From: Chloroflexota bacterium
Lineage (GTDB): Bacteria; Chloroflexota; Anaerolineae; Anaerolineales; Villigracilaceae
Direction: 5' to 3'
DNA length: 29,589 nt
Assembly (NCBI GenBank): GCA_021812905.1
Contig: JAKAMM010000001.1
Location: 1-29,589 of the forward strand
Shown here in pieces: positions 302 to 27,880 of the stretch (positions are counted from its first letter, which is position 1; each line of letters opens with the position of its first letter). The position numbers and the translations under genes were made by a program. Under the pieces are notes generated by a model. That model was not told the origin of the DNA. It worked only from the letters and a program-made list of their open reading frames with translations, and did not search any database.

Positions 302-330
302 TCTCATACAAAACTCTTTGAGTGTCCGCT

Positions 331-11032: not shown

Positions 11033-12526
11033 TCAGGCGGGAATTTTTTGGTCTTGTGACTGCGGAGCGACAAAGTCTTTCGGCAGAACGTTCGCTTCCG
11101 TGACGATGCGCGGAACGATCTCTTCCCAGCCAACGGCCATGATGTGCAGTCCGTTCACACCTTGACCTTCGAATTTTTTGATCTTCTCGATCAGTTCGAG
11201 AGCGATCCTCACGCCTTCTTCCTGCGCGTTGCCTGCTTTCTCCGCGGCTTCCATGCGTTTCATGATCGAATCCGGGACAAAGACGCCCGGCACTTCGTCG
11301 TTCATGAACTTCGCCATCTTGAAGGTCTTGAGCGGTGTGACGCCGATCAGAATATAGACTTTATCAAGAATATTTCGCTTTGTCAGTTCGTTCAGCCAGA
11401 TTTCCATGTGGCCGATGTCATAGACCAGGTTGGTCTGGAAGAACTGCGCTCCGGCATTGACCTTCTTATGTTCGCGCAGGGCCTGGAACTTCGGCTCGCT
11501 GGCAAAGGGTGAAGCCGCCGCGCCGAGGAAATATTTGGGCGGCGTCTTGATCTCGCGCCCGTCCATATATTTGCCTTCATCGCGCATACGGCGCATGATC
11601 CACAGCATTTGGATCGAGTCAATGTCGATCACGTCCATGCGGCCGCGCGGCGGGGGCGCCATTTTCATGCTGTCACCTGAAATGCAAAGGATGTTGCGAA
11701 TGCCAAGATCAGAGGCGCCCATCACTTCGGATTGCAACCCGACCCGCGTGCGGTCACGCGCCGCGATCTGCATGACGGGTTCCGCGCCCTGCTGGATCGC
11801 CATGCACGAGCAGGCCCATGAAGCGGTGCGCGGCGTGGCGGAGGGATTGTCCGTGAAGTTGATGGCGGCAACATAAGGCTTGACCAATTCGATGTTCTTG
11901 CACATCTTGTCGGTCTTGCATGAGATGGGCGGCGCGACTTCAGCGGTGACGACGAACTCGCCGGCTTTGAGTCTACGTTCCAACTCGGAGACGGGTTCGG
12001 TATATTTCGCCCCGTGATATTGATTGTCGCCCTGCCACCAATCAGGTTCGCGGATGACGCGGAAGATTTCATCCCACGTTTCATAGCGGACCTTGGCAGG
12101 CTTGAACAGCACTCCGTTAACGACCTTGCCCGTACCGATCTCCTTGACGCGATTCAATACGCCGCTCCATTGTTCCGTGCCGACCTTGTCCCAATCCAGC
12201 GGCGGCAGGACTTCGAGCAGGTGTTCTTCGCGTCCCATCGCAAAGGAGCGCTCGTAAATTTTGTACCAGATACATGGGCGCGTTTCGTCCACGTAGCAAT
12301 GTTCTTTTGTGGAACCGCCGCAGGGGCCGTTGCGCTCGCCTTTGGGACATTCCATCGGGCAGATGAAGGCTGTCTCCTGCAACAAGCAGTTGCCGCACAT
12401 GCGGCATCCAAACAGCGGACCTTTGATTGCCTTCTCAAGCGTTGCCAATACGCGGCGATTAAACGGTTCGCGCTTGAACGGCAGGTACGGCGGTTGCCAG
12501 CGGCGACCGGGTGTAAATCCAGGCAT
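11033..12526 (-). CDS. metF: Fused MetV-MetF methylenetetrahydrofolate reductase
   Basis: Reduces methylene-THF to methyl-THF, the last methyl-branch step before transfer to the corrinoid protein. The 497-residue protein has two parts. Residues about 1-170 are the MetV-like zinc/iron-sulfur domain, with eight cysteines at 41, 44, 47, 56, 60, 69, 77 and 85 (GCRMCGNC, CPMECPKGERNGPCGG). Residues about 185-480 are the MetF TIM barrel (FVVTAEVAPP, INFTDNPSA, NILCISGDS, FFQTNLVYD). In acetogens such as Moorella these are separate genes; here they are one chain with MetV first. A strong AAGGAGGTG precedes ATG 12526. The flavin and electron donor cannot be told from sequence. Confidence 0.93.
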   Translation of the reverse strand: MPGFTPGRRWQPPYLPFKREPFNRRVLATLEKAIKGPLFGCRMCGNCLLQETAFICPMECPKGERNGPCGGSTKEHCYVDETRPCIWYKIYERSFAMGREEHLLEVLPPLDWDKVGTEQWSGVLNRVKEIGTGKVVNGVLFKPAKVRYETWDEIFRVIREPDWWQGDNQYHGAKYTEPVSELERRLKAGEFVVTAEVAPPISCKTDKMCKNIELVKPYVAAINFTDNPSATPRTASWACSCMAIQQGAEPVMQIAARDRTRVGLQSEVMGASDLGIRNILCISGDSMKMAPPPRGRMDVIDIDSIQMLWIMRRMRDEGKYMDGREIKTPPKYFLGAAASPFASEPKFQALREHKKVNAGAQFFQTNLVYDIGHMEIWLNELTKRNILDKVYILIGVTPLKTFKMAKFMNDEVPGVFVPDSIMKRMEAAEKAGNAQEEGVRIALELIEKIKKFEGQGVNGLHIMAVGWEEIVPRIVTEANVLPKDFVAPQSQDQKIPA

Positions 12527-12681: not shown

Positions 12682-13605
12682 TCAATTCATCAAATACGCA
12701 TCCGCGTAAATCACTTTATTCAGCAGGATCTGCGTCGTCTTCCAGATGGCGGACTGTTCGGGGTCGGACAGATCGAAGTCTTCCATCTGCGGCTCTTCGC
12801 CCGCGAAAGTCCGTTCAGCGATCTTGTTGTAGACGCGCGCCAGCGGCGTGGACAGATCCTTCGTTTCGATCCATTTGATGACAGCGTTCTGTTCGTTGTC
12901 GAACGGATTGGCGATCATCATCTGCAGGCCAACTCCCATTAACATGGCACAGTAGACGCGGTTGATGAGCGGACGATTGTCATTCGGCACCGCGTTCGAC
13001 ACGTTCGATAAACCGACCGAGATGTTGGGCGCGGGATCCCAGGCATATTGCAAAGTCCGAACCGCTTCGATGAGATGCGGGCAATATTGCTGGCACCCGC
13101 TCACGGTCAGCACGAGCGGGTCAATGATCAGATTCTCCATCGGCAGTTCAACTTCCATCATGCGCGGGATCAATTTCTCCACCGCTATGTTGACGCGCGC
13201 GTCCGCTTCGACGGGAATGCCTTCGGTCTTCATCGTCAGTGCAATGACTTTCGCGCCATATTTCTTCGCGAGCAGCGGCACTTTCTCCAATCGCTCTGGT
13301 TCCGCTGAAGTTGAATTCAAAATAGGCTGGTTCTTCTTGATGGTCTTCAGCGCGGCTTCCATGCCGTCCACGTTGGTCGTGTCAATCGAGAGCGGCACGT
13401 CCACCACCGTCTCCACCGTCTCGACGATCCACGGAAAAACCTCCGCCCAATCTTTTTTGCGCGGGCCGAGGTTGATGTCCACCGCCTTCGCTCCCGCTTC
13501 GACCTGCCGCACCGCCAAATCCATGAAGAACTCTCGGTCTCTCGCGGCCAGCGCCTCCTTTACTTTCTCCGAGATGATGTGAATGTTCTCTCCGATGATG
13601 TACAT
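12682..13605 (-). CDS. acsE: Methyl-THF:corrinoid/iron-sulfur protein methyltransferase
   Basis: Transfers the methyl group of methyl-THF to the cobalt of the corrinoid iron-sulfur protein AcsCD. The 307-residue protein is a pterin-binding TIM barrel: VDINLGPRKKDW, VPLSIDTTN, ILNSTSAEPERL, GAKVIALTM and the GLSNVSNAVPN loop with the conserved asparagines near the N5-methyl group. The known enzyme has about 262 residues; this one has about 40 extra C-terminal residues (SDPEQSAIWKTTQILLNKV region) of unknown purpose. GGAGG lies 5 nt before ATG 13605. It is flanked by acsV and metVF. Confidence 0.94.
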   Translation of the reverse strand: MYIIGENIHIISEKVKEALAARDREFFMDLAVRQVEAGAKAVDINLGPRKKDWAEVFPWIVETVETVVDVPLSIDTTNVDGMEAALKTIKKNQPILNSTSAEPERLEKVPLLAKKYGAKVIALTMKTEGIPVEADARVNIAVEKLIPRMMEVELPMENLIIDPLVLTVSGCQQYCPHLIEAVRTLQYAWDPAPNISVGLSNVSNAVPNDNRPLINRVYCAMLMGVGLQMMIANPFDNEQNAVIKWIETKDLSTPLARVYNKIAERTFAGEEPQMEDFDLSDPEQSAIWKTTQILLNKVIYADAYLMN

Positions 13606-13695: not shown

Positions 13696-15627
13696 TTACG
13701 TTTTCAACGCCTCCGCCACGCTCGGAAACCTGCTCAAATCCGTGTGCGGCAAAAACAACGCCGATGTGAATGCTTCATAAAAAGTATTGTCAGCCGATAA
13801 TTCAATATAGGTCATACGCTTCGCGATCTCAGTAATACGTTCTCTTTTTCTCCAATCCAGCAACGCATAGTACGCGCCCTTTACAGATGTATTACCAAGA
13901 AACTCAAACCTGTTCCACTCCATGTCAGGTAATAAGCCAATCTGTACGGCTTTCTCCACGTTGATGTATTTTCCAAACGAGCCGCCGATCAACACCTTGT
14001 CTGTTGTTTCGAGTGGAACACCGACATTTTCAGCCAGCACGGTGAACCCCGCGTAGATAGCGGCCTTGGCGCGCAACAAGTTGTCGATATCGACTCTGGT
14101 GATGACGATATCTTCACCTGATTCGGACTCGGCGCCCCATGCAACTACATACTCTCCGCCGTGCGCTCCCTCGCGGACCCTTGAACTGTTGACCGTTAAA
14201 TTGACATTGCCAGCTTTGTCGAGGATTCCCGTTATGAACGCCTCCGACAGTAACGCGATCAACCCGGAGCCACAGATACCTTTCGGTTTGCCTCCACCAA
14301 TGACGCGATAAGTTGGTTCGTATGTTTCGCCGTTGATCCACACTTCTTCGATTGCGCCCTGCGTTGCCCTCATGCCATTCACAACACCCGCGCCTTCAAA
14401 GGCTGGCCCTGCCGAGCAGGCGCATGTGACCAGCCAATCGCGATTGCCTAAGACGGTTTCGCCATTCGTTCCTACATCAAGGAATAAAGTCACGTTTTCG
14501 GCATTGTCCAAACCCGATGACAACACGCCTGCTGTAATGTCCGCACCGACGTAACTCGCCACGCCGGGCAGACAGTCCACACTGGCTTCGGGATGAATGT
14601 TGAGCCCAACTTCGCGTGCGGTCATGATTGGCGGATGATTAACCGTTGGGATAAATGGTGAGAGCCGAATACTCGAAGCAGGGATTCCCAACAACAAGTG
14701 CATCATCGTGCTGTTGCCCGAGATGGTCACCTTCATCACATCTTCAGGCTTGGCTTTGACTCGCTTGCAGGCGGTCTCAAACAAGCCGTTGATCGTATCC
14801 AGCACGCGACGACGGAGTTCCTGCCCGCCACCGTTTTTGCTGGCGTAGACGATTCTTGAGACCACATCCTCGCCACGGGCGATCTGACCGTTGTATTCCG
14901 CCACCTGTGCTTTGACTTGTCCACTTACTAAATCAACCAGCCACAACGTAACTGTTGTCGTGCCGATATCGACTGCACTGCCCCACACAGGTGAGTATTC
15001 ATCCATCAGTCCGGGTTGTAGATCAATGAGTCGAACGGCTCTGTTAGCTTCACCGCTTTGGATAACATTTGCGATATCAACTACAGCCGTGATATTCCAA
15101 TCACCCTCGCGCAGAACATTGCCCATTCTTTGCAGGAGACTCAATGAGCAGGTCGCATTTTCATAGCGATACTGTAAGCGCAGAGCGGTTTGCAAGCGTG
15201 ACCAATCATCGGTCTGATCGTCCATGCTGGGAGGGGCAAGCTGCAGATGCGCGCGGCGGACGGTCTGCACGAACGAATATTCATAGTCGCCCGGAACGGT
15301 GACCTCAGCTACGACGCGGTCAGTGGTCAGTCGCCGTTCTATCTTCTCCTGCGGCGGGATATATACTGCAATGTCGCCTTCAACAACGCTTTGACACGCG
15401 AGCGCGTAGCCCTGCTCGACATCACCAGTGGAAAGACGTAACGTGCTTCTCCGCCGAACATTTCCCTCCGTCACCTGCACCGCGCAACGACCGCAACGCC
15501 CCTGCCCGCCGCACGGCTGGCCGATGTCAAGACCAGCCAGGTGGGCGGCGTCAGCCAGCATGGTGTTGGTCGGAACTTTAACGGTGGCGTTTTTGCTTTC
15601 GCCAGTGAAGGTAATGGTGTGTTGCAT
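13696..15627 (-). CDS. acsV: Corrinoid reductive activator AcsV (RACo-type ATPase)
   Basis: Uses ATP and a low-potential electron to return inactive Co(II) of the corrinoid protein to Co(I). The 643-residue protein starts with a plant-type [2Fe-2S] domain (C39, C45, C48, C78; the CGGQGRCGRC signature), followed by a linker and middle domain. The C-terminal ASKHA ATPase part has AVDIGTTTVTLWLVD, FLDVGTNGETV, CACSAGPAFEGAG, KGICGSGLI and VLIGGSFGKY. ATG 15627 is used; the frame extends to a TTG at 15669, but that extension is just spacer-repeat sequence. It lies between acsC and acsE, in line with its job on AcsCD. Confidence 0.94.
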   Translation of the reverse strand: MQHTITFTGESKNATVKVPTNTMLADAAHLAGLDIGQPCGGQGRCGRCAVQVTEGNVRRRSTLRLSTGDVEQGYALACQSVVEGDIAVYIPPQEKIERRLTTDRVVAEVTVPGDYEYSFVQTVRRAHLQLAPPSMDDQTDDWSRLQTALRLQYRYENATCSLSLLQRMGNVLREGDWNITAVVDIANVIQSGEANRAVRLIDLQPGLMDEYSPVWGSAVDIGTTTVTLWLVDLVSGQVKAQVAEYNGQIARGEDVVSRIVYASKNGGGQELRRRVLDTINGLFETACKRVKAKPEDVMKVTISGNSTMMHLLLGIPASSIRLSPFIPTVNHPPIMTAREVGLNIHPEASVDCLPGVASYVGADITAGVLSSGLDNAENVTLFLDVGTNGETVLGNRDWLVTCACSAGPAFEGAGVVNGMRATQGAIEEVWINGETYEPTYRVIGGGKPKGICGSGLIALLSEAFITGILDKAGNVNLTVNSSRVREGAHGGEYVVAWGAESESGEDIVITRVDIDNLLRAKAAIYAGFTVLAENVGVPLETTDKVLIGGSFGKYINVEKAVQIGLLPDMEWNRFEFLGNTSVKGAYYALLDWRKRERITEIAKRMTYIELSADNTFYEAFTSALFLPHTDLSRFPSVAEALKT

Positions 15628-15639
15628 CTTTTGTAAAAG

Positions 15640-15695
15640 GTTTGCAGGTTGGCAGGTTGGAACCTTCAAACTTTCAAACCTGCCAACCTGTAAAC
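15640..15695. repeat. Intercistronic hairpin of reiterated words (acsC-acsV)
   Basis: CAGGTTGGCAGGTT at 15645-15658 is perfectly complementary to AACCTGCCAACCTG at 15677-15690. With one wobble the stem extends to 15640-15658 / 15677-15695, about 19 bp. Each arm is itself a tandem of the short word GCAGGTTG. It fills the acsC-acsV spacer. Confidence 0.7.
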
Positions 15696-15696
15696 G

Positions 15697-17010
15697 TTAG
15701 TTGAGCGCCTGCTTCATAAACGCGGGCAAGTCCACCGCCTCGCGTGGACCGACGCGCACCTCCCAGCCGGGCAATTCTTCCTCGACTTCGCCGGAAAGCA
15801 CCGCCACATGGCCGGGCAGGACGATCCTCTTCCTGCTGACTTTGCTGGCAACGTCGAAGCCTTTGATGGCCTTGGCGATTCGCTCCGCATCGAATTTGCC
15901 TGCCGCCCACGCCGTCAGCACGGACATGCCTTCCGCATCCGTGACGACCAGCCAGGCGGGAAGACCTGAACCTTCCACTTCGTTCGCGACTGCAAAGTAC
16001 GTGATGCTGAAATTGGTTGTGACCAATACAGGGCTTTCGGGCTTGGGCGAGTTGATTTCGTAAATGCCAGGCTGGACCTGAATCGGTTTTTGCGGATCAG
16101 TGTAGATGTTTTCGCGCAGGACGAGTAATGGATACAGCAATTCGGACTTGAACTCGCTCAACACAATAAAGCCTGCATATTTCGCAATCGCTTGCGCGGC
16201 GGCAATGCCTTCGTCTTTTGCGTCGCATGGAAACGCAATGGTCGGATAACCCAGCGCGCGGAAATTGGCTTTGATCGCCAGGCGGCGCGCCTGCGTGGAA
16301 CGCGTCAGCCATTCGTTCATGTTCGTGCCGCCGAGATCGAGCACCATATCTTCCACGCCCTTCGCTTGAATCTTTTGAGTCAAGTCTGCGAGGGCGTCGA
16401 GCGAGTCAGCTTTGACGACTAGGGCGGCTTTATGATTCTTGGCAAGGTCGGCCATCGCGTCGGCATTGGAGGCGTCAGCCGCGTAAAGCAACGGGGTCTC
16501 GCCTCCGCAGGCTTGAAGTCCGGGTTGAAGCGAGGCGGGATCGCCCATCAAAATGAGCGGACGCTTCGTCGCAGTTCGAATCGTTTTAATGGCAGACGCC
16601 AAGTCGCCATCCGCAAGAACTGCGAAACCATCAATTGAAAAATCCATTCCCACGTAATTTACTTTATACGCATCGGCCTGCGCGACTTTTTGTGCAAGTT
16701 TAGGGTCAGAGACATTGACGCGGATGAAGAGGCTGGGTTTGTTGAAGAAAGTTTTTTCATGGCGGAACATCACGACTTCGTTGCCTGCTTTAACTTCCGT
16801 GCCATTGGCTTTGAGTGTGATGAGTCGAATCGGAGGCGCGGCGGACTCAGCCAATTGTTTTTGGGATGCTTCACTGACATACGGGCACACGCTCAGTTCA
16901 ACCTGCTTGGAGGCGAGCTTCATCGCAAAGGCGAGACAAGTGGGAAAGCCGCATTCTTTGCAGTTCGTTTGGGGGAGGAGTTTGTAGATTTGGATGCCGC
17001 TTAGTGCCAT
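15697..17010 (-). CDS. acsC: Corrinoid iron-sulfur protein large subunit (ACDS gamma)
   Basis: Large subunit of the corrinoid iron-sulfur protein, which carries the methyl group between AcsE and AcsB. The 437-residue protein (CdhE family) begins with the [4Fe-4S] domain (C17, C20, C25, C42; TNCKECGFPTCLAFAMKLA), followed by a TIM barrel (VNYVGMDFSIDGFAVL, RPLILMGDP, LVLDLGGTN). The C-terminal corrinoid-binding domain includes TTNFSITYF, GLPAWLVVTDAEGMSVL and ELPGWEVRVGPREA. An AAAGGA site precedes ATG 17010. It directly follows acsD. Confidence 0.95.
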   Translation of the reverse strand: MALSGIQIYKLLPQTNCKECGFPTCLAFAMKLASKQVELSVCPYVSEASQKQLAESAAPPIRLITLKANGTEVKAGNEVVMFRHEKTFFNKPSLFIRVNVSDPKLAQKVAQADAYKVNYVGMDFSIDGFAVLADGDLASAIKTIRTATKRPLILMGDPASLQPGLQACGGETPLLYAADASNADAMADLAKNHKAALVVKADSLDALADLTQKIQAKGVEDMVLDLGGTNMNEWLTRSTQARRLAIKANFRALGYPTIAFPCDAKDEGIAAAQAIAKYAGFIVLSEFKSELLYPLLVLRENIYTDPQKPIQVQPGIYEINSPKPESPVLVTTNFSITYFAVANEVEGSGLPAWLVVTDAEGMSVLTAWAAGKFDAERIAKAIKGFDVASKVSRKRIVLPGHVAVLSGEVEEELPGWEVRVGPREAVDLPAFMKQALN

Positions 17011-17089: not shown

Positions 17090-18034
17090 TCAAACAGTGA
17101 TAAGTTCGCCAATCGCTTCATGGATACGCTTGACGGATTCAGGATGCCTCAGCACAACCACATCCGCGCCCGATTCGATGAGTGAAATCGCGGTGAGCGT
17201 TTCCCAATTGATGGCGCGGGACTTCCAATCGCCCCACGCCTCCGGCACGCCTTCGCCAACCTTCGACTCTTTCGTCTTCCACGATTCAAAACCGGGCGTG
17301 ACAATCATCGGCTGCTGGGTCATCGTATCACCTTGAAGAGCCGCGAGCCGTAAGCGTTCCATCACGGAATAGCCATATTCGATCCCATAGCCCAGCGCGC
17401 CGGTGGTCGGGTCCATGATGATGCGATCATGCGGCATGCCCATGTCACTGATGAGAATGTTCAACTGCTTCGACAGATTCACATCCATTGGCGTGCGCGC
17501 CTGCACCAGATGACCATTCGCCATGGCGGTCGCCACAATCGTGCGATAATTTTTATCTTCGCAAATTCCAAGCACAAGTTTCTCGCCCTTGGTCGCTTCC
17601 GCAATTGGGACCAGCAACTCATTATCTTGTTCGGCTTGACCCGGACCCCAGACGATGAGCGGGAGTCCGCTGGCGGCTAATACGGATTTGACAGCCTGCA
17701 GCGCGTCTTCTGCGGAATCATCAACGGTCAGCGCCAGGACCAAAAGGTCTGCCCCCGCTTCTTGGGCCTTTTTCGCCCATTGAGCGACGTCCGTCATCGC
17801 TTCACCCCACGCCTCAACCAACAACGGCGACCAGTCTTCAGGGCGTCGCGATTTGATCTCAATCGCAATCATTGGTTTATTTGGCGCGGACGCTTCAAAG
17901 TGCAGAAAGGGCAGGGTCGTTTGTCCGCCCAGCGTGATGGACTTGGCGCGCGTACCACCCTCTGCGCTCGTTGCGCCGATGGTGACAGTTTTAATACTCC
18001 CGGGCCATTTGTCTTTGGGAATTTCGATGGGCAT
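17090..18034 (-). CDS. acsD: Corrinoid iron-sulfur protein small subunit (ACDS delta)
   Basis: Small subunit of the corrinoid iron-sulfur protein, a TIM barrel that covers the corrinoid carried by AcsC. The 314-residue protein (CdhD family) shows the expected FLHFEASAPNKPMIAIEI, ADLLVLALT, ARTPMDVNLSKQLNILI, MDPTTGALGYGIEYGYSVMERLR and GADVVVLRHPESV segments. The length matches the bacterial protein (about 320). GGAGG lies 4 nt before ATG 18034. It is upstream of acsC with a 79-bp spacer and downstream of the CBS-domain gene. Confidence 0.95.
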   Translation of the reverse strand: MPIEIPKDKWPGSIKTVTIGATSAEGGTRAKSITLGGQTTLPFLHFEASAPNKPMIAIEIKSRRPEDWSPLLVEAWGEAMTDVAQWAKKAQEAGADLLVLALTVDDSAEDALQAVKSVLAASGLPLIVWGPGQAEQDNELLVPIAEATKGEKLVLGICEDKNYRTIVATAMANGHLVQARTPMDVNLSKQLNILISDMGMPHDRIIMDPTTGALGYGIEYGYSVMERLRLAALQGDTMTQQPMIVTPGFESWKTKESKVGEGVPEAWGDWKSRAINWETLTAISLIESGADVVVLRHPESVKRIHEAIGELITV

Positions 18035-18123: not shown

Positions 18124-18621
18124 TTATCCGATTCCCGCTTTTCTTCTTGCTTCATCTCTTCTTTCAATGAAAGTTTCAATCGGCGATTTTCGCTCCGCCG
18201 CAAGACCTAAATCCTTCAACTCGCTTTCATCCTTCGCGGCAACATGTCTCAAAATGTGCCGATAAGAAATATATGCGGCAGGATAAATAATGCCCACAGA
18301 GTTGTGTAGCATATAAGCGATACGGATTCCTTTGTCTCTCATCATCTGCGCCGCGACGGTCAGCGGAATATCCGCTCCTAACTCTGGCATGCCTTCGCTC
18401 ATGATGTCTTCGGCTTTCAAAGAATCAAGATTATCTTTGCCGTACGCCGCGACCAATTGCTCTTCACCGACCACGCCAATGCCATGACCTTCCGCGTCGA
18501 GCACACACATCGCTTCGACGTGGTGTTCGAGCAGGAAGCGCGCGATATCTTTAATGGGCGTTTCCCATTTGCAGGTCGGCACGCCGACGGTCATCAAGTC
18601 ACGGACGAGAAATGGTTTCAT
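18124..18621 (-). CDS. Paired CBS-domain protein in the CODH/ACS operon
   Basis: A protein of 165 residues (from ATG 18621) made of two CBS repeats, about residues 5-60 (VRDLMTVGVPTCKW, IARFLLEHHVEAMCVLD) and 73-130 (AEDIMSEGMPELGADIPLTVAAQMMRD), then a charged C-terminal tail. CBS pairs bind adenosyl ligands such as AMP, ATP or SAM, so a regulatory role for the complex is plausible but inferred. The start is uncertain: another ATG at 18693 directly follows the acsB stop (TAGATG) and would add 24 residues encoded by the spacer repeat. The 18621 start has no Shine-Dalgarno, while 18693 has GGAG about 12 nt upstream. Confidence 0.8.
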   Translation of the reverse strand: MKPFLVRDLMTVGVPTCKWETPIKDIARFLLEHHVEAMCVLDAEGHGIGVVGEEQLVAAYGKDNLDSLKAEDIMSEGMPELGADIPLTVAAQMMRDKGIRIAYMLHNSVGIIYPAAYISYRHILRHVAAKDESELKDLGLAAERKSPIETFIERRDEARRKAGIG

Positions 18622-18690
18622 GTTGAAGGTTGAAGGTTGGAAGGTCGAATGGGATGCGAACCTGCAACCTTCAACCTTCCAACCTTGAAA
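18622..18690. repeat. Two-register hairpin of reiterated GAAGGTT words (acsB-CBS)
   Basis: GAAGGTTGAAGGTT at 18625-18638 pairs with AACCTTCAACCTTC at 18666-18679 (14 bp). Alternatively AAGGTTGGAAGGT at 18633-18645 pairs with ACCTTCCAACCTT at 18674-18686 (13 bp). The two pairings share bases, so they are mutually exclusive. The element lies between acsB and the CBS gene and can be read through in the CBS frame. Confidence 0.7.
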
Positions 18691-18693
18691 CAT

Positions 18694-21600
18694 CTAGAAT
18701 ATTGGCTCCATCGCCATGGCGGGGTGATTGTGCCCTTCGAGCCAGGCAAGTAAATCTTCAACTGAGGTTACATTCCTTTCATCGGCGATCCTATCGAGCA
18801 GGTCGGGGTCGCCTTCGCGCTCGCAGACTGCCTTGAATTCATCGGACATGGTTTGCTTCAACACGGACGACATCCAAACCACGCGCTTGAAGCCGCCGTC
18901 AGCGGAGATGAACTTGGGGCTGATGAGGTAGAACTTGCCGACGCCCATCACCCCCGGGGTTTGAAGCCCGCCGCCCGCGATACCCGCCAGCGTAGAGAAC
19001 GTCATCCCCGCGGGAGTCATGGATGTGTCTTCGCGGCTGAGCACCATCACACCGTTGGCTTCGGGGATGAGCATCACAATGCACTCGAAACATCCACAGT
19101 TTTTAACGTGAATGCCGTTTGCCAGGTAACTGTTGATGTCAAGCAGGCTCAGGTTGTAAACGTAGTCGAATTGCCCGTTGTTCTTCACCTTTTCAACGCG
19201 GGTGATAGCATCTAGGAAGAAATCGTTTTCCAGCCAGGGAGCCAGCGTGGCGGACGTTTCGGGGGCTTCTTCAATCACGAGACGGACGTTATCCGCGACA
19301 GGCCGAGAGCGTCCCGTTTTGTAATAGAACAGCGTGGACGGGCTAAGGATGGCGTGGCTTTCCTGTAATCCCGCAATTGCTTTGCCAGCCTGATACGGCA
19401 AGACTTGATCCTGTCCCTTGTCGAGGCCGTTCTTCGGCAAAGCGGCGATTCGCCTGAGGGCATCGCTTTTTTGCGGGTGACGCGAGCGGGACATCTCGGC
19501 GAAACGGCGCAGGTTGGCGCCATGCAATTCCACGCGGTAAACCGAGCGGTCTTTTCGCAGGGAACTGACAACGCCCAATCGTTTCAACAACATTTGCATG
19601 TCGCGGGAGGCTTGCTTATCCTGGTGGCTCAAATAACATTCTGCAGACGGCCAGTTGCCTCCTCGCAGGCGCACAGAGCCGTCGCCGTCGAGAACGCCAG
19701 ACAGGAACGCGGCGATGTGTTCTTCGGGGAGCGAAATCAGCCGCGCCAAGTCCCAGGTTTGCCCGCCGCGCATCCGCACACCAAGACTTTCGGCCAGCAA
19801 TCCCAACAGGAAGTTGTTGCCATACAGATCGAAGCTATCTTGCGTGGGAACGATTGGCCTGCCATCAATCCTGCCCGTGCTACGCTTGGCGCGTTTTCCG
19901 GGCGCGGCGTCTGGGAAATGACTCGTGTAGATCGCGGAGAACGCATCCAGTAATCCTGCCTCGGCGTTGGTGAAGTTTACGCGACATTCGTCGCGCCCCT
20001 TCCAATCCAAAGAGCCGTCCGAGGCGATCAAACCCAACAGGTACAGCAAGTCGGGGGCGATCTCGGGCAGTCTCATGCGCGGGTGTCCGTTGGTTGGCGC
20101 GACTGTGGCGATGTTGCGCTTGAACTCGTCCCAGGAATGTTCCAATTGTTCTACGATGTGACGCAGGTCTCTCAGCGATATGGAGGTGACGCGCGGATCA
20201 GGTTGCTCCAATCCCAACGTCCGATAAGCCTTTGTGAGAGAGCCGTAGCGCGCCTGCATGGATTCGCGAATCTCGTTAAACAACACTTCGTCAGCCACAC
20301 GGCAGTCGTCAGGCAGTAGATCAATTGCCAGCGGAATTTTTTCTTCGAGACGCAAATGCTTGACGGCGTAGAGTCTGTCGCCTTTGTGCAACTCGTCCAC
20401 GCGCGCCCATGGACCGTGCCCGTTTTGCCCCCAGCGATCAACGGCAACTTCGTGATTAATGGTCAGGGTCAACTCCAGCCCGGATTTGGTCTCGATGTGG
20501 ATCAACTCTTCGGGCGCGGGATTCTTGTGAACGCCGAGTAATTTGCTTTGTGCCAGCCTGCCATTGTCGTCTAGTGTGTGTAGGTCGGATTGACAACCTG
20601 TGGTGAGCGAAGTCGAACCATCCGGCTTGCGATACGTATTGATGAAATCGCCAATCTTTTTCAGATGTCCATCCACAATCACGGTGGCGTCTTCAGTCAG
20701 GCAGGCCGTCATTGGGTTTTCCATGATGGAGTACATCGAAACTTCGTTGACCACACCATGCGAGCCGATGGCCGCGTACTCGTTCGTGCCGCTCCAGTAG
20801 CCTTTTCGGTCGTCAATCAGTTTGCCGAGTTTGATGGGCTGGTTCGGACCAGTCGGGTTGATGCTGAACGAGGCTTTACAGTCCAACCAGTTATATGCGC
20901 CGCACAAGCCGAGCCGTTCAGGCGAGACCACACAGACGTGGTTCGGCGCGAAGGATTGACACAAGGTGCAGGAGTAGAACTCGTCCACTTTGTTATCGGT
21001 CAGGTCGGCGAGGCGCTTGTTGCGAAAGTCGTACGCGAGGCGCGCCTTCTCCAGCCATTCAGCATGGAGCACGGGCTCGGTGACTATCGTGATTTGGACC
21101 TTATCCACGATCGCGCCGAAGTCTTCATGGAAACGCGCGTGCAGGATTTTGCCAAACGATTCAAGGTTGAACCCTTTGTCTGCCGCGGTATTCGAGACGC
21201 GGATCCAGGCGATGTCGCGCTGACCGACGTGTTGTATTCCGCTCGCTCCGTTGACAAAATAATGGATCTGACGTTCAAGCACAGGCTCGAAGTCCTGCTG
21301 CATTTGCCGTCCCGCCACTTTGATGACGATGCCCATATCCATTGAACCTTGTGGTTCAATCTTCGAGAAATCGGGGCCGACGACTTCTATTTTGCCGTCA
21401 GTGACCTCATCCAATTTCGCCATTTGCAGGAACTCAAAGGCGCGCGAGTGCTTGCCGCCAAACTCCACTCGCAAATCCGCCTTGCGGACCACTTCGCCTT
21501 CAAACGCAGAACCGTACGGCACAGGCACATCCACGTTGGATACTTTGACCTTTACGCCGCGTACTTCGATACACTTTTGCACCAATTGTTCAGCGCGCTC

Positions 21601-22584
21601 GAGATCGTCCTTGCCTTCGATTTGATTGAACGGCATGGAGACAACATGCTCGTAAGTCGTCACGCCTGTTGGCAAAATTTCCGGGATGACCGTATCCGCG
21701 ATAACGGGGAATCCGAAGTTGATCGCGCCTGCCGCCGCCGCGTATTTCAAATCGTCCACTTCGCCGAGTGCAAGCACAAAAGCAAAGACGCGGTCTTTGT
21801 TGTAAAGCAGGATTTCGCGTGACATGCCAGGCTTGAGTCCGCCGAAGGTCAACGCGGAGCGAGTTGCAAAGCCTAAAGCATAAATCGCAGAGATGGTGTC
21901 CGTACCAAATGGGACAGTGTATGTGTCGTAGCCCAGCTCAACGCCCTCTTCTTGAAGTTGATGGATAATACTTCTTCCATTCACATTGCCAGAGAGAAAG
22001 GTCAGAATGTTTCGCCGCTGCAACTCGCGCACGATCTTGACGGCGACTTCATTCGACTTGGCGCATCCGACAATCGCGGCGAATCCGGGCATACGACCAT
22101 CCACCAATTGAATGCCCCATGAGCGCAGTTGGATGTCATCAATTGGCCCGTTGAGATAACCATCACTTGATGCTTCTTTTCCATTATCGGGACTTGTGAA
22201 CGATGTTCCGCCTGCGAGTTTGAATCCCGGCATGGGCTCAGGCTGCAGCTTATAAGCGAAGCGTACAGCTTCAATTGTCTCCGCCGCGAGAAGCGTTGCC
22301 ATTCCTGAGTCAAGAGTCTCGCCAAGGTAGGGAGTCCATTTTGAGGCAGCAGGAATCGGATGAAGCATATCCCGCGCTTGTTTCATCACAGGCTGCAGGT
22401 CGCCGATTTTTTCAACGGTCTTGCCTGTCATGCCGAGAATCGTCGGCAGATAATATGCAGTGTTCGGAAACGCGACGGGCGTGTCCGCCCCTTTTTCTTT
22501 CAGCGCTCTATCCAGCATGATCTCGGCTTCGGTGACCAGCGCGTTGGCTCCGCGAATTGCGCGTGTGGCTATGTATCGTGACAT
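18694..22584 (-). CDS. acsB: Acetyl-CoA synthase AcsB, interrupted in frame by an intein
   Basis: Forms acetyl-CoA from CO, the methyl group of AcsCD and CoA at the nickel-iron A-cluster. The 1296-residue reading frame equals a 761-residue bacterial AcsB (Moorella enzyme about 729) plus a 535-residue intein. The N-terminal CODH-contact domain and middle domain are present. The [4Fe-4S] ligands are C539, C542, C551 and C561 (YSCTLCQSF, HVCVV, GLCGAYN), spaced exactly like Moorella C506, C509, C518 and C528. After removal of the intein the nickel-binding Cys-Gly-Cys falls at 628-630, again offset by 33 from C595/C597. AGGAG precedes ATG 22584. There is no frameshift in either extein. Confidence 0.96.
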   Translation of the reverse strand: MSRYIATRAIRGANALVTEAEIMLDRALKEKGADTPVAFPNTAYYLPTILGMTGKTVEKIGDLQPVMKQARDMLHPIPAASKWTPYLGETLDSGMATLLAAETIEAVRFAYKLQPEPMPGFKLAGGTSFTSPDNGKEASSDGYLNGPIDDIQLRSWGIQLVDGRMPGFAAIVGCAKSNEVAVKIVRELQRRNILTFLSGNVNGRSIIHQLQEEGVELGYDTYTVPFGTDTISAIYALGFATRSALTFGGLKPGMSREILLYNKDRVFAFVLALGEVDDLKYAAAAGAINFGFPVIADTVIPEILPTGVTTYEHVVSMPFNQIEGKDDLERAEQLVQKCIEVRGVKVKVSNVDVPVPYGSAFEGEVVRKADLRVEFGGKHSRAFEFLQMAKLDEVTDGKIEVVGPDFSKIEPQGSMDMGIVIKVAGRQMQQDFEPVLERQIHYFVNGASGIQHVGQRDIAWIRVSNTAADKGFNLESFGKILHARFHEDFGAIVDKVQITIVTEPVLHAEWLEKARLAYDFRNKRLADLTDNKVDEFYSCTLCQSFAPNHVCVVSPERLGLCGAYNWLDCKASFSINPTGPNQPIKLGKLIDDRKGYWSGTNEYAAIGSHGVVNEVSMYSIMENPMTACLTEDATVIVDGHLKKIGDFINTYRKPDGSTSLTTGCQSDLHTLDDNGRLAQSKLLGVHKNPAPEELIHIETKSGLELTLTINHEVAVDRWGQNGHGPWARVDELHKGDRLYAVKHLRLEEKIPLAIDLLPDDCRVADEVLFNEIRESMQARYGSLTKAYRTLGLEQPDPRVTSISLRDLRHIVEQLEHSWDEFKRNIATVAPTNGHPRMRLPEIAPDLLYLLGLIASDGSLDWKGRDECRVNFTNAEAGLLDAFSAIYTSHFPDAAPGKRAKRSTGRIDGRPIVPTQDSFDLYGNNFLLGLLAESLGVRMRGGQTWDLARLISLPEEHIAAFLSGVLDGDGSVRLRGGNWPSAECYLSHQDKQASRDMQMLLKRLGVVSSLRKDRSVYRVELHGANLRRFAEMSRSRHPQKSDALRRIAALPKNGLDKGQDQVLPYQAGKAIAGLQESHAILSPSTLFYYKTGRSRPVADNVRLVIEEAPETSATLAPWLENDFFLDAITRVEKVKNNGQFDYVYNLSLLDINSYLANGIHVKNCGCFECIVMLIPEANGVMVLSREDTSMTPAGMTFSTLAGIAGGGLQTPGVMGVGKFYLISPKFISADGGFKRVVWMSSVLKQTMSDEFKAVCEREGDPDLLDRIADERNVTSVEDLLAWLEGHNHPAMAMEPIF
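19099..20703 (-). mobile_element. Intein in AcsB with LAGLIDADG homing endonuclease
   Basis: 535 residues between MTA and CGCFECI of AcsB. Block A: Cys1 in CLTEDATVIVDG. Block B: LTLTINHEVAV (T81, N83, H84). Two LAGLIDADG helices: YLLGLIASDGS (Asp 229) and FLSGVLDGDGS (Asp 341), both acidic residues intact, so the endonuclease may be active. Blocks F and G: VYNLSLLDINSYLANG then IHVKN, ending in Asn535; the next residue is Cys (+1). Unusual points: the block F Asp is Asn517, the block F His is Asn524 and the penultimate His is Lys534. Residues about 130-215 and 400-500 are extra regions with helix-turn-helix-like parts. Splicing would be autocatalytic and must occur for AcsB to work. Confidence 0.95.
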
Positions 22585-22684: not shown

Positions 22685-24691
22685 TTATCCGTAAATCGCG
22701 ACCTTCCGTTGTTCAACTGGCAACTTTTCCAACTCGATCATCCTCGCGTCGCCGCTGCGACCAAATTTGTTCGGGTCATATTCAGGCAGGCCCAAAGCGG
22801 CGCGCTTCTTATCAATGTGTTCCAAAGTTTTTTGTATCATCTCATCCGGATCGGGAATGAACTCCAGCTTGCCGCCGTAGATTTTCTCCCAACCCTCGCC
22901 GATATATTTCAGTACTGCATCGCTGTCCTGCACTCGGTCGGGCATTCCGCTCACGGGCGACGCGCCGCCGAAGATCACATAGGCGCCGGAAGCAACGCAA
23001 TATGTTGCAATCGCCAGCGCCTTCTCGCTCATCCATTCGGGTGCGAGACCGACGGCGGGGATTTGGTCAATGTCATTGCCGAGACCGCCTGTCTCGACCA
23101 TTTGAGTCAACACAGTCAGGATGCGCGTATTGTCAACGCATGAGCCCATGTGAAGGACAGGCGGAATGCCAACCGTTTCGCAAACTTCGCGCAGACCATT
23201 TCCGACTTCGCTCAAGCCGGCTTCGCCCAACATGAGTCCCAGCTTGCCCGACGCGATCGCGCCGCACCCCGTCTGCACGACGAGCACATCCTGTTTCAAT
23301 AAATCACGCACAACCTTGTTATGCAAATAGTCCTGCGACGAACGCGGATTGTTGCAGCCGACAATCGCGGCCACACCGCGGATGCGTCCACTCATAATCG
23401 CGTCATTCAACGGACGGAACGAGGCGCGATATGATCCACCGAGCATATAGTTGATGTATTCATTTGAGAAACCGGGGATTAAATCTTCTTTGATGTTTGG
23501 AATGCGTGTCTTGGAGTTATCGCGGTTTTTGAAGTTATCAATCGCCGTCTTCAGGATCGTCTTCGCCACCGTCAAGGCGTGATGCTCATCGAACTCGATA
23601 TGTGTCGCGCCCGTGATCTTGACCTTCGGCGAGGTCGTGATGATCTTGGTATGGAAATTCTGCGCCAAACCGACCAATGCCTGCATGATGCACTGCACAT
23701 CCACCACCATGGCTTCGACTGCGCCGGTCATGATGGCGAGTTCCTGATGCAGGAAGTTTCCCGCCGCGGGGATGCCCTGTCGCATAAGAATTTCATTTGC
23801 CGTGCAACAAATCCCTGAAAGGTTGACTCCCTGCGCTCCTGCCGCTTTTGCGTATGCAATGATCTCCGGATCTTGCGATGCCGCGACAATCATCTCGCTC
23901 AAGCTTGGCTCGTGTCCGTGCAACACCACGTTGACCATGTTCTCCTTGATGACACCGAGATTCGCCTGACCTAAAATCGGCGCGGGCGTGCCGAATAAAA
24001 TATCTGAGATGTCGGTGGCGATCATCGAGCCAGCCCAGCCATCGGCTAGTGATGTTCTAATGGCGTGATTCAAGATGTGTTCGGGTTCCTGGTCATCGCC
24101 GATGTGCGTACGGTGCAAAGCCTCGACCACCTCACGATCCACGCCGCGCGGCCAGACCTTTTGTTCGCGCCAGATTTGCTGTCGCTTCTTCGGCGCGCGT
24201 TTGGCAGGGACAACCTCGCCCTGCTGTTGGCCGAACTGCGAAATGTAAAGGTCGGCCAATTCATTGGCGATCTCTTCGGGCGCGCGTCCCTCCACTTTGA
24301 TATCGTAATAAGACGCGACCATCCGCAACTTCGCAACGTCGCGAATGCCGTATCCTTCCGCCTCGCCTTTCGCTGTTGCCTTCAAAAGGAAAGCCATATC
24401 GCGGCCATGATCCGAATGGGCCGCGGCGCCCGCCGCGATGGAACGCGTCAGGTTGCGGGCTTGCATGGTATCCAGCGTTGCGCCACACACGCCCACTTCC
24501 CCGCTCTTCGTCAATCGGCATGGACCCATCCCACATTGTTTGCAACACATGCCTGCCGCGCCGATGTTGCAGGGCACCATCTTGTCCGCACGCGTGAAGG
24601 CCGTATCGAGTCCCAACTCCTGGGCGCGGACCAGCATTTCCTGCGCGGCGGGGTCAGTCGAATATTCGGTGATTCCACGTTTCTTAGGCAT
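22685..24691 (-). CDS. acsA: Ni-Fe carbon monoxide dehydrogenase, catalytic subunit
   Basis: Interconverts CO2 and CO and passes CO to AcsB through the internal tunnel. The 668-residue protein is the bacterial AcsA/CooS type. The N-terminal cluster ligands are C41 and C49 (D-cluster) and C50, C53, C58, C69 (B-cluster) in CNIGAAGMCCKQCGMGPCR. The C-cluster region has the conserved HGHEPSLSE histidine and cysteines in LSGICCTANE, IVGCNNPR, VQTGCGAI, HMGSCVDN and ATYCVASG. ATG 24691, with GGAGG upstream, is preferred over the GTG at 24709. It overlaps the upstream small gene by 8 nt and precedes acsB. Confidence 0.96.
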   Translation of the reverse strand: MPKKRGITEYSTDPAAQEMLVRAQELGLDTAFTRADKMVPCNIGAAGMCCKQCGMGPCRLTKSGEVGVCGATLDTMQARNLTRSIAAGAAAHSDHGRDMAFLLKATAKGEAEGYGIRDVAKLRMVASYYDIKVEGRAPEEIANELADLYISQFGQQQGEVVPAKRAPKKRQQIWREQKVWPRGVDREVVEALHRTHIGDDQEPEHILNHAIRTSLADGWAGSMIATDISDILFGTPAPILGQANLGVIKENMVNVVLHGHEPSLSEMIVAASQDPEIIAYAKAAGAQGVNLSGICCTANEILMRQGIPAAGNFLHQELAIMTGAVEAMVVDVQCIMQALVGLAQNFHTKIITTSPKVKITGATHIEFDEHHALTVAKTILKTAIDNFKNRDNSKTRIPNIKEDLIPGFSNEYINYMLGGSYRASFRPLNDAIMSGRIRGVAAIVGCNNPRSSQDYLHNKVVRDLLKQDVLVVQTGCGAIASGKLGLMLGEAGLSEVGNGLREVCETVGIPPVLHMGSCVDNTRILTVLTQMVETGGLGNDIDQIPAVGLAPEWMSEKALAIATYCVASGAYVIFGGASPVSGMPDRVQDSDAVLKYIGEGWEKIYGGKLEFIPDPDEMIQKTLEHIDKKRAALGLPEYDPNKFGRSGDARMIELEKLPVEQRKVAIYG

Positions 24692-25094
24692 GATCCGCCT
24701 CCTCGTCACGCGTGACCGAAATGGTTCCCATTCCGGGGCACGGCCATAGCGGGCGTCCGCTGTAACTCACGCACTGGGCAAACGTCACCGTCTTCCCGGT
24801 CGTTTCATAAACAGCGGTGTGACGGAAGTAGCTTCTCTTTCCCTCATCAGATTGTTGAGCCGCAACTCCTGCCTCGACTGGCACTGTCCATTCGCCGAGA
24901 TAGCCCGCCTCATCCAGCCTGGCAGTGATTTGCAGGTCGTTGATCTTCTTCTCATCGTAAGTTACTTCAATAACCTGAAAGGCACTGCTGGCGTACACAT
25001 CCGCAACGCCTTCCAATTGCAAAAGAATACGCCTGACCTCGGTGACGTGGTGGTCGCCGAACAGGGCAGGCGTATTGAAACTTGAGGTCTTCAT
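24684..25094 (-). CDS. Small HMA-like protein, first gene of the acs operon
   Basis: A protein of 136 residues. Residues about 9-70 look like a heavy-metal-associated (ferredoxin-like) fold (EVRRILLQLEGVADVYASSAF, VIEVTYDEKKIND, ITARLDEAGYLGEW), but the usual CXXC metal loop is replaced by GDHH (13-16). The C-terminal part has two cysteines, C108 and C119, the latter in PCPGMG. Its position as first gene of the operon, overlapping the CODH gene by 8 nt, and its His/Cys pattern make a nickel-handling or assembly role plausible; this is inference. A strong AAGGAGGT precedes ATG 25094. Confidence 0.75.
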   Translation of the reverse strand: MKTSSFNTPALFGDHHVTEVRRILLQLEGVADVYASSAFQVIEVTYDEKKINDLQITARLDEAGYLGEWTVPVEAGVAAQQSDEGKRSYFRHTAVYETTGKTVTFAQCVSYSGRPLWPCPGMGTISVTRDEEADHA

Positions 25095-25309: not shown

Positions 25310-26083
25310 ATGAAACTTGCGATCACTGGCAAAGGCGGCGTGGGGAAAACGACACTGACCGCGCTCCTGGCGCAGACGTATGCGCTTCAGGGCCGGGACG
25401 TTTTAGCGGTTGACGCGGACCCAAGCCCCTGCCTCGCTGGAGCTTTGGGATTCCCGTCCGAACTGCGCGCGCGGCTTCGTCCCATCGCGGAGATGGATGA
25501 ATTAATTGAAGAACGCACGGGCGCGAAACCCGGAACGATTGGCGGATTCTTCACCCTCAACCCGCGCGTGGACGACATCCCCGAACGATTCAGCGTTCTT
25601 CATCGCGGCGTTCGATTATTGGAAATGGGGTCAGTTGATTTGGGAGGCTCTGGTTGTATCTGTCCCGAATCTGCCATGCTCAAAACACTTTTCACACATC
25701 TCATGTTTCGCAAGGATGACGTCCTTCTGCTGGACATGTACGCGGGTGTCGAACATCTCGGCCGCGCCACCGTTGACTTTGTGGACGCCATGTTGATTGT
25801 CGTCGAACCGACGCGGCGCAGTCTCGGCACTGCCGCGCAGATCAAGAAGCTGGCAAATGATATTGGCTTGACGCGTTTGTATCTGGTTGGGAATAAAGTG
25901 AGGAACGACGAAGAAGCAAAGTTTCTCGAATCAGAAACTCCTGACTTACCTTTACTTGGTTATCTGCCCGCTGATTTGAAAGTGCAGGAGGCGGACAGAC
26001 TCGGAATACCTGTGTATGATCATGTGCCAGTTTTACGGCAGGCGGTGGAAAAGATGGCAGTTGTGTTAGCGAGGCCGCAATGA
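25310..26083 (+). CDS. cooC: CooC/AcsF-type nickel-insertion ATPase (copy 1)
   Basis: A MinD-family ATPase that helps put nickel into CODH/ACS. The 257-residue protein has a deviant Walker A at the N-terminus (GKGGVGKTT, residues 7-15), the VDADPSP switch segment, and the paired metal-binding cysteines C116-I-C118 in GGSGCICPE, which in CooC bind metal at the dimer interface. It is transcribed away from the acs operon from the shared spacer. No Shine-Dalgarno is visible before ATG 25310. Whether it serves the C-cluster of AcsA or the A-cluster of AcsB cannot be told. Confidence 0.92.
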   Translation: MKLAITGKGGVGKTTLTALLAQTYALQGRDVLAVDADPSPCLAGALGFPSELRARLRPIAEMDELIEERTGAKPGTIGGFFTLNPRVDDIPERFSVLHRGVRLLEMGSVDLGGSGCICPESAMLKTLFTHLMFRKDDVLLLDMYAGVEHLGRATVDFVDAMLIVVEPTRRSLGTAAQIKKLANDIGLTRLYLVGNKVRNDEEAKFLESETPDLPLLGYLPADLKVQEADRLGIPVYDHVPVLRQAVEKMAVVLARPQ

Positions 26084-26828: not shown

Positions 26829-27095
26829 ATGTACACTCTGCGGATATTGGAATCTGCGGCGCGCGATTTGGCAAATCTTGATAAGCCGGTGGCGCGCCGT
26901 ATTGTTTTACGTTTGAATTGGATGGTTGAAAATTTTGACGGTATCCGCCATATTCCATTATCTGGTGAATTGTCTGAGTTTTACAAGTTTCGCGTTGGGG
27001 ATCATCGGATTTTATATCAAATCCTTGATAATGAAAAAATCATCCTGATACATGCGGTTGGTCATCGCCGCGATGTTTATCGAGGTCGAAAATGA
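26829..27095 (+). CDS. RelE/ParE-superfamily toxin
   Basis: A protein of 88 residues with the RelE/ParE layout: YTLRILESAARDLANLDKP at the N-terminus, VARRIVLRLNWMVEN helix, then PLSGELSEFYKFRVGDHRIL and the C-terminal IHAVGHRRDVYRGR. The basic residues in the VGDHRILYQI and GHRRDVY segments are typical of the mRNA-cutting RelE type, though ParE-type gyrase inhibition cannot be excluded. ATG 26829 follows the antitoxin stop by 1 nt. Its TGA stop (27093-27095) overlaps the ATG of the second cooC (27092-27094). Confidence 0.85.
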   Translation: MYTLRILESAARDLANLDKPVARRIVLRLNWMVENFDGIRHIPLSGELSEFYKFRVGDHRILYQILDNEKIILIHAVGHRRDVYRGRK

Positions 27096-27880
27096 CAATC
27101 ACAATCGCCCTCGCAGGCAAAGGCGGTGTGGGCAAGACCACTGTCGCCGCGATGATTATTAAGTATCTGGCGCAGAATCAATCGGGAAGCATACTCGCCA
27201 TTGATGCCGATCCTTCGTCCAACCTGAACATGGTGCTCGGCCTTGATCTCGAATGGACGGTCGGCGACATCCGCGAAGACATGCTCGAACAAGTCAAGTC
27301 ATCGCTGACGAATGGCGGCGCGGCCATGGGAACCATGCCCGGTGGAACCAACAAGCGCGATTATCTCGATTACCATATTCATTCCGCCTTAGCCGAAGGC
27401 AATCGCTTTGACTTGATCGCCATGGGCCGCGGCGAGGGACAGGGCTGTTACTGCGCGGTCAACCACAACCTGCGCGAAGTGATTGACTCGATGAGCAAAC
27501 ACTATGCCTACGTCGTCATTGATAATGAAGCGGGCATGGAACACCTCAGCCGCCGCACGACGCGCGATGTGCAGCATCTGTTCATCGTCAGCGACCCGAC
27601 CCAGCGCGGCCTCGTCGCCGCGCAGCGCATCGCCGATATGCGCAAGGAACTGGACATCAATATCGAGAATGCTTATTTGATTATCAACCGCGTCAATGGC
27701 GACTTGCCTGCGCCGCTCAAAACCGAGATCGAAAAAACGGATGCGCCTGTGCTGGGCATTATTCCGGCCAACGACGATTTGTCTGCTTTCGAGTTTTCCG
27801 GCAAACCCCTGGTTGAGTTGGGCGACGACTCTCCCGTTTATCAATCAGTTGAAAAAATAATGCGGCAGATTCTCAAATGA
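27092..27880 (+). CDS. cooC: CooC-type nickel-insertion ATPase (copy 2)
   Basis: A 262-residue MinD-family ATPase. The Walker A GKGGVGKTT lies at residues 9-17, followed by AIDADPSSNL, and the metal-binding cysteines are C119-Y-C121 in GQGCYCAVN. VIDNEAGMEHLSRR, typical of CooC, follows. It is clearly diverged from copy 1, so the two may serve different nickel sites or partners. Its start overlaps the toxin stop, and only a weak GAGG lies upstream, so translation probably depends on ribosomes leaving the toxin gene. Confidence 0.93.
   Translation: MTITIALAGKGGVGKTTVAAMIIKYLAQNQSGSILAIDADPSSNLNMVLGLDLEWTVGDIREDMLEQVKSSLTNGGAAMGTMPGGTNKRDYLDYHIHSALAEGNRFDLIAMGRGEGQGCYCAVNHNLREVIDSMSKHYAYVVIDNEAGMEHLSRRTTRDVQHLFIVSDPTQRGLVAAQRIADMRKELDINIENAYLIINRVNGDLPAPLKTEIEKTDAPVLGIIPANDDLSAFEFSGKPLVELGDDSPVYQSVEKIMRQILK

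Follow-up and report, generated by a model that had tools for sequence, protein, structure and literature searches.

Why should an intein sit at the very cysteines that hold the catalytic nickel of acetyl-CoA synthase (ACS), and is it there as a mobile element or as a switch for the enzyme? The question is raised by a 29,589-nucleotide stretch of a Chloroflexota contig (JAKAMM010000001.1; hereafter the window, meaning that whole stretch), in which the ACS gene, acsB, is interrupted by a complete intein. Inteins are best known from proteins of replication, recombination and repair, according to passages of a review (PMC5874633). We consider it very probable, reading from sequence, that the window copy belongs to a homing, self-splicing intein family that parasitises the cysteines of the A-cluster, with an endonuclease that likely spreads it, and that it is not a dedicated switch. 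The direct basis for this reading is the reading frame, the junction residues, the predicted fold, the family and its site specificity, the pattern of presence and absence, and selection measured against one relative.

Results

The acsB reading frame is single and unbroken over all 1296 amino acids (aa). Two insertion sites matter in what follows, site A at the equivalent of Moorella Cys595 and site B at that of Cys509, and the main features of the frame are these:

18694..22584, minus strand: acsB (acetyl-CoA synthase) frame with intein, 1296 aa (open reading frame and profile matches)
20704..22584, minus strand: N-extein, AcsB residues 1-627, with all four cubane cysteines inside (1mjg alignment)
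20902..20970, minus strand: stretch of the cubane-cysteine codons, equivalents of C506, C509, C518 and C528 (offset, alignment, invariance in 195 exteins)
20959..20961, minus strand: codon of Cys542, equivalent to Moorella C509, which is site B, unoccupied in the window (site-B mapping)
19099..20703, minus strand: intein, 535 aa, Cys1 to Asn535, at site A (sequence, profile, predicted model)
19096..19098, minus strand: codon of the +1 Cys, equivalent to Moorella Cys595 (offset and 1mjg alignment)
18697..19098, minus strand: C-extein, 134 aa, beginning Cys-Gly-Cys (matches PDB chains 3s2x and 5gol)

The host protein is a bacterial AcsB both by its equivalog profile (NF040764, 926.4 bits against a cut-off of 800) and by its six A-cluster cysteines. 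The intein opens with a Cys codon at 20701-20703 and closes with an Asn codon at 19099-19101, and its removal would leave a predicted spliced product of 761 residues. It carries the marks of a class-1 intein of the Hint superfamily (Cys1, the block-B T..H, a C-terminal Asn, and a Cys, Ser or Thr at +1) and is placed in that class by the curated profile TIGR01445 for the intein N-terminal region, which scores 37.8 against a cut-off of 24.5; LAGLIDADG_3 scores 60.2 against 22.5 in the same AcsB chain. The predicted model has a Hint fold that aligns end to end with solved inteins. On frame, junction residues and these two profiles, the complete 535-residue intein described in the initial annotation of the window stands. 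Its parts are:

20341..20703, minus strand: N-terminal splicing segment (roughly residues 1-121 of the intein), which includes Cys1 and the block-B residues T81/H84 (kept in mini-inteins)
19426..20064, minus strand: LAGLIDADG endonuclease domain, intein residues 214-426 (VIA-align range to I-Tsp061I; PF14528)
20011..20040, minus strand: LAGLIDADG motif 1, LLGLIASDGS, with D229 (in 72 of 73 full-length site-A inteins)
19675..19707, minus strand: LAGLIDADG motif 2, FLSGVLDGDGS, with D341 (in 73 of 73 full-length site-A inteins)
19099..19425, minus strand: C-terminal part, comprising the SPSTLFYYKTGRSRP segment and splicing blocks F and G, ending ...GIHVKN (sequence comparison)

Both LAGLIDADG motifs keep their catalytic acids, the sequence hallmark of a homing endonuclease, and the C-terminal end reads VYNLSLLDINSYLANGIHVKN/C.

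In a phmmer alignment to Moorella ACS (PDB 1mjg), which covers nearly all of that enzyme, residues 10-628 correspond to 26-595 and residues 1162-1295 to 594-728, with residue 628 paired with Cys595; an offset of 33 locates C506, C509, C518, C528, C595 and C597 in the window AcsB. The alignment upholds what had been proposed from the letters alone, namely that the extein is collinear with a normal enzyme on both sides, that this offset aligns all four cubane cysteines and puts the +1 Cys at C595, and, as far as sequence can tell, that the insertion lies exactly there and the +1 Cys is the Cys595 ligand. The cubane is held by Cys506, Cys518 and Cys528, and Cys595 and Cys597 also complete the proximal nickel, in agreement with the initial annotation. 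Portions of a study of ACS (PMC8910529) describe the Cys509 thiolate as bridging the Fe4S4 cubane to two nickels, the proximal nickel as bound by three cysteine thiolates, and the distal nickel as bound by two amides and two thiolates from a Cys-Gly-Cys motif. At site A all cubane cysteines lie in the N-extein and the nickel motif in the C-extein, so that excision separates cubane assembly from nickel insertion, while site B divides the cubane ligands themselves, with Cys506 before it and Cys509, Cys518 and Cys528 after it. From this ligand geometry we infer that splicing is needed before the A-cluster can be complete; if the element is self-splicing, as is likely, its removal would have to come before the enzyme takes up nickel.

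The initial annotation had implied that the insertion was unique, and this did not hold. A search with the intein region returned 82 proteins, 79 of them with the AcsB domain PF19436, and one with a site-B intein returned 63. A search with the extein, which is not biased towards these inteins, was limited to proteins from about 1011 aa upwards, and 120 of its 1463 matches were listed. With the window extein mapped on the carriers, site-A inserts fall at residue 628 (Cys595) and site-B inserts at residue 542 (Cys509). Among the 224 distinct proteins collected, which are clusters at 90% identity and not genomes, 120 are carriers, the window included, with 83 complete inserts at site A and 55 at site B, and 18 proteins have both; homologues checked for inserts at Cys595 thus supply 83 such cases, of which the window is one. 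Incomplete inserts (for example in P0032, P0034, P0035, P0053 and, at site B, P0092) are not counted. The 120 listed extein matches divide into 19 with site A only, 5 with site B only, 4 with both and 92 without a complete insert, where P0092, in the 92, ends inside a site-B insert and P0084, scored as B only, ends inside a site-A insert. A scan of 195 near-full exteins found no insert of 25 aa or more at a third site within AcsB, though rarer sites may be missed; its six entries come from four proteins and represent N-terminal extensions or fusions. Cys is the first residue of all 138 inserts and Asn the last, and in each case the residue after the insert is Cys. Ten at site A are mini-inteins of 144-243 residues, with most or all of the endonuclease gone. 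The SPSTLFYYKTGRSRP segment (window 19219-19425, intein residues about 427-495), which follows the endonuclease, is kept in six of the ten mini-inteins without endonuclease.

A search of open-access full text, which leaves InBase, preprints and subscription papers outside its scope, found no published AcsB intein; the intein passages of PMC6390638 and PMC3087415 name inteins in GyrB, DnaE and ribonucleotide reductase and none in AcsB. The pair of intein alleles in acetyl-CoA synthase is real, is unreported within the open-access literature searched, and is ordinary in kind and striking in place.

The tree of inteins (a quick LG+G4 tree, drawn with midpoint rooting; its 70 rows comprise 32 of the 83 site-A inteins, 28 of the 55 site-B inteins and ten others) splits the site-A from the site-B inteins by a branch of support 100, with one lineage per site. 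The intein of CdhA, the alpha subunit of carbon monoxide dehydrogenase (CODH), from locus L022 adjoins the site-B lineage (support 96, on a long branch), and inteins of HdrA, TruB and V-ATPase lie outside the AcsB/CdhA group. The tree of the 195 exteins, 71 of which have an intein at A and 51 one at B, requires a minimum of 26 changes in carriage for A and of 27 for B. Hosts with nearly the same AcsB can differ: in one pair, with exteins 99.3% identical, one has A only and the other B only; in a second (98.8%), A stands against none, so that close relatives with and without the site-A intein do exist; in a third (96.2%), A and B stand against B only. This pattern of presence and absence fits homing, indirectly. 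Between the window and its relative L001, the ratio of nonsynonymous to synonymous substitution (dN/dS) comes to about 0.1 for the intein and to 0.05-0.09 for the exteins, rough values because dS is near saturation, and in this pair the intein is under purifying selection. Third positions differ at 0.40 of 226 sites in the intein and at 0.55 of 191 in the distal N-extein (Fisher p about 0.002, from rounded counts), and the fewer differences in the intein are in line with its later shared ancestry.

AcsB inteins are rare overall and common in some groups. They account for 27 of 48 named loci, four of the 27 seen only from the C-extein side, in Anaerolineae, other Chloroflexota, Aerophobetes, Omnitrophota, Actinomycetota, Acetothermia, Poribacteria, Clostridia and Subteraquimicrobium; ten of the other 21 loci were scanned with Pfam and comprise one CdhA, one HdrA-like, five TruB-like and three V-ATPase A. 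Genome samples were scored by PF19436 matches split at the profile positions of site A or B, and each was centred on a known carrier that is itself counted, which biases the shares upwards. A clear split was found in 2 of 49 AcsB-bearing genomes of the phylum of G005 (Chloroflexota by locus title; 400 genomes sampled) and in 5 of 104 in the phylum of G012 (285 genomes, with some further matches partial); the shares are 6 of 10 in the family of G008 (18 genomes) and 6 of 9, two from the C side only, in the phylum of G010 (17 genomes). No intact second acsB was seen in the 23 genomes reached from 23 of the 27 AcsB-intein loci, which by title are metagenome-assembled genomes (MAGs) and may be incomplete; the PF19436 matches there are pieces of the intein-bearing gene or contig-end fragments.

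Why these cysteines? Eight Cys, Ser or Thr residues are invariant in the 195 exteins, a set probably rich in Chloroflexota: T42 in window numbering, and C506, C509, S511, C518, C528, C595 and C597 in Moorella numbering. Six of the eight are A-cluster ligands. Since a class-1 intein needs Cys, Ser or Thr at +1 and homing needs a fixed target, landing on ligands is to be expected. That both sites are nickel-bridging would arise by chance in 3 of the 28 pairs of invariant nucleophiles, or about 11%, so the coincidence is not significant alone; this, together with the ligand-rich invariants, lessens the need for a functional reason, and the coincidence at nickel is partly explained.

Some members of the collection are unusual. 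In P0101 (1894 aa) and P0102 (1896 aa) a single chain combines AcsB with a prismane/CODH domain (PF03063), and site B is occupied by an intein; the intein-free P0134-P0224 from the extein search are AcsB-CdhD fusions (PF03599), which the length limit favours. P0034 starts exactly at MTA-Cys1, likely an artefact of gene calling, as the frame of L062, whose intein is nearly identical, runs unbroken over 2380 aa and extends upstream of that point; G656 appeared as a lone C-extein, and its contig simply ends there. At L020:7256-7263 (= L056) the site-A intein lies in two overlapping frames, with a stop/start overlap in ATGGATAA and AGGAAGG just upstream. A frameshift may have produced this broken form, or it may be a naturally split intein; in the sibling L059 the frame is continuous. 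Some intein-bearing acsB genes are labelled homing endonucleases by automated annotation, which should serve as a warning for such pipelines.

By profile search, acsB sits among Wood-Ljungdahl genes, and the surroundings of the window gene are:

22685-24709: CODH catalytic subunit (profile)
18124-18693, minus strand: CBS-domain protein, between acsB and cdhD (domain scan)
17090-18034: CdhD (profile)
15697-17010: CdhE (profile)
13696-15669: AcsV-like gene (profile below cut-off)
12682-13605: methyltransferase-like gene (profile below cut-off)
11033-12526: MTHFR-like gene (profile below cut-off)
25310-26083 and 27092-27880, plus strand: two MinD/CbiA-type P-loop ATPases, divergent from the acs genes
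322-2706, plus strand: 794-aa protein with cytochrome c7/c3 domains

From gene context we would guess at CooC/AcsF-like roles in nickel insertion for the two ATPases.

Discussion

In the mechanism that we propose, Cys1 would form a thioester, the +1 Cys would attack it, Asn535 would cyclise, and the 761-residue AcsB would be ligated, whereupon the +1 cysteine of splicing would serve both nickel ions as a ligand. The cubane ligands all lie in the N-extein, which would allow the Fe4S4 centre to assemble beforehand, but Cys595 and Cys597 would reach their native geometry only once the intein is excised. In homing, the endonuclease would cleave an acsB that lacks the intein, within the stretch that encodes ENPMTA/CGCFEC, and a copy of the intein would then enter there. 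The A-cluster would be chosen as the place that satisfies at once the +1 residue of a class-1 intein and the unchanging target of a homing enzyme, the invariants being nearly all ligands.

Several observations weigh against this account. Splicing and cutting by the window copy are likely but only predicted activities, and the match to PF14890 is below threshold (24.1 against 35.8). Textbook blocks F and G have an Asp, a block F His and a penultimate His, the last found in most inteins. In the window copy the block F Asp and His are both Asn, and the penultimate residue is Lys534, so that the usual His-assisted cyclisation of Asn is missing and C-terminal cleavage could be slow; passages of the review (PMC5874633) note that a missing penultimate His affects splicing. 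The penultimate Lys is a family trait, seen in 72 of the 83 inserts at site A and in 49 of the 55 at site B, against a single His at each site, and the block F His is kept in 54 of 55 site-B copies; other groups probably assist the cleavage. Shuffled data give more carriage changes (means of 58 for A and 46 for B) than the extein tree does, which implies that much of the descent is vertical and that carriage reflects inheritance in part and gain or loss in part. Intein identity tracks extein identity (Spearman 0.73 for A, over 2485 non-independent pairs, and 0.48 for B), and in the order of G016 the site-A intein looks fixed (five of five genomes, one from the C side only). Finally, the estimate of selection comes from a single, nearly saturated pair.

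The alternative that survives best, which we nonetheless think unlikely, is a maintained post-translational switch, in which splicing, and with it ACS activity, would be governed by nickel, by redox state or by the Fe4S4 centre. The +1 nucleophile does align with a nickel ligand, the crystallised C-terminal fragment of ACS (3s2x/5gol) is the counterpart of the C-extein, and portions of PMC8910529 report that engineered variants of this 136-residue fragment bind Ni as NiN2S2, one with a Kd of 6.4 uM. Since such variants bind nickel alone, we would predict that nickel could bind the +1 thiol before splicing, and conditional splicing is known in other hosts (passages of PMC5874633). A redox switch with its own trap cysteine, considered here as a second Cys within the intein, is not seen: no Cys column except Cys1 reaches 95% of the 73 full-length site-A inteins, the most frequent others holding Cys in 48 and 43 of them. 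Carriage, moreover, flips between hosts whose exteins are 96-99% identical, and the clear splits in the 400-genome phylum sample are only the two among 49. The gating of acetyl-CoA synthesis by intein removal, suggested in the initial annotation, is a chemically plausible prediction and holds in a weaker form; as a regulatory function it is not supported by these sequences.

That the insert is instead a non-splicing relic in a broken acsB on its way out is highly improbable: the replaced residues of blocks F and G in the window copy would suit it, but the frame is intact, dN/dS against L001 is low in intein and exteins alike, the six A-cluster cysteines are invariant in 195 exteins, and the other pathway genes around acsB are intact. 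An assembly chimera joining an intein to acsB is extremely improbable: nothing found speaks for it, and independent contigs of many assemblies share the same junction at the same residue.

The homing family that we favour has relatives and parallels. The archaeal V-ATPase A inteins TliVMA and PhoVMA, and PI-PkoII, appear by model comparison to share its whole-chain plan, a Hint domain interrupted by a LAGLIDADG endonuclease, at 17-20% identity in VIA structure alignments; the window intein differs from them in its nickel-iron-sulfur enzyme host and its penultimate Lys. Inteins of HdrA-like (L026, P0080), TruB/Cbf5-like (L025, L027, L032) and V-ATPase A (L034, L035) proteins are about 25-30% identical to it, and differ in their penultimate Ser in the four read (P0080, L026, L025, L034). 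In the HdrA-like L026:4784-8281 (plus strand) and P0080 the intein lies in a CSIC motif with the second Cys at +1, a residue that may bind a cluster. The nearest outside row to the site-B inteins is the 561-aa intein of CdhA at L022:1643-5722 (plus strand) in a Methanosarcinales MAG, whose +1 Cys lies within the CxxCCxCxxxxC motif (PDB 8riu position 71); it differs in host subunit and in its penultimate Gln, its long branch leaves the placement unsure, and the two PF19436 (CdhC-type) matches in the same genome contain no insert. The paired MCM-a and MCM-d inteins of Haloferax (PMC10643990) likewise occupy two nearby sites per gene, with carriers of one or both; there the host is a replicative helicase and homing was shown in vivo, whereas the AcsB inteins are known from sequence. 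The conditional inteins of SufB and RadA, as excerpted from PMC5874633, also sit in functional proteins, some at functional sites, and in them the response to a signal was measured.

We tentatively suggest, as a minority possibility, that nickel and splicing contend for one thiol. If the C-extein is a nickel-binding domain that folds by itself, Ni(II) that reaches Cys-Gly-Cys ahead of excision would block the +1 nucleophile and arrest the precursor, splicing would commit the cubane and nickel halves to one chain, and the lineage as a whole (AcsB Cys595, AcsB Cys509, a CdhA cluster cysteine) may have specialised on the cysteines of metal clusters, with a final step that depends on lysine. If so, metal status would decide whether acetyl-CoA synthase forms. 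Across several phyla, two related intein lineages have settled at two of the cysteines by which an ancient enzyme of carbon fixation binds its catalytic nickel. With the splicing nucleophile and the catalytic metal ligand being one atom, interference between metal loading and splicing becomes testable, and intein-bearing, mini-intein and intein-free ACS together form a natural set for tracing the flow of Wood-Ljungdahl pathway genes.
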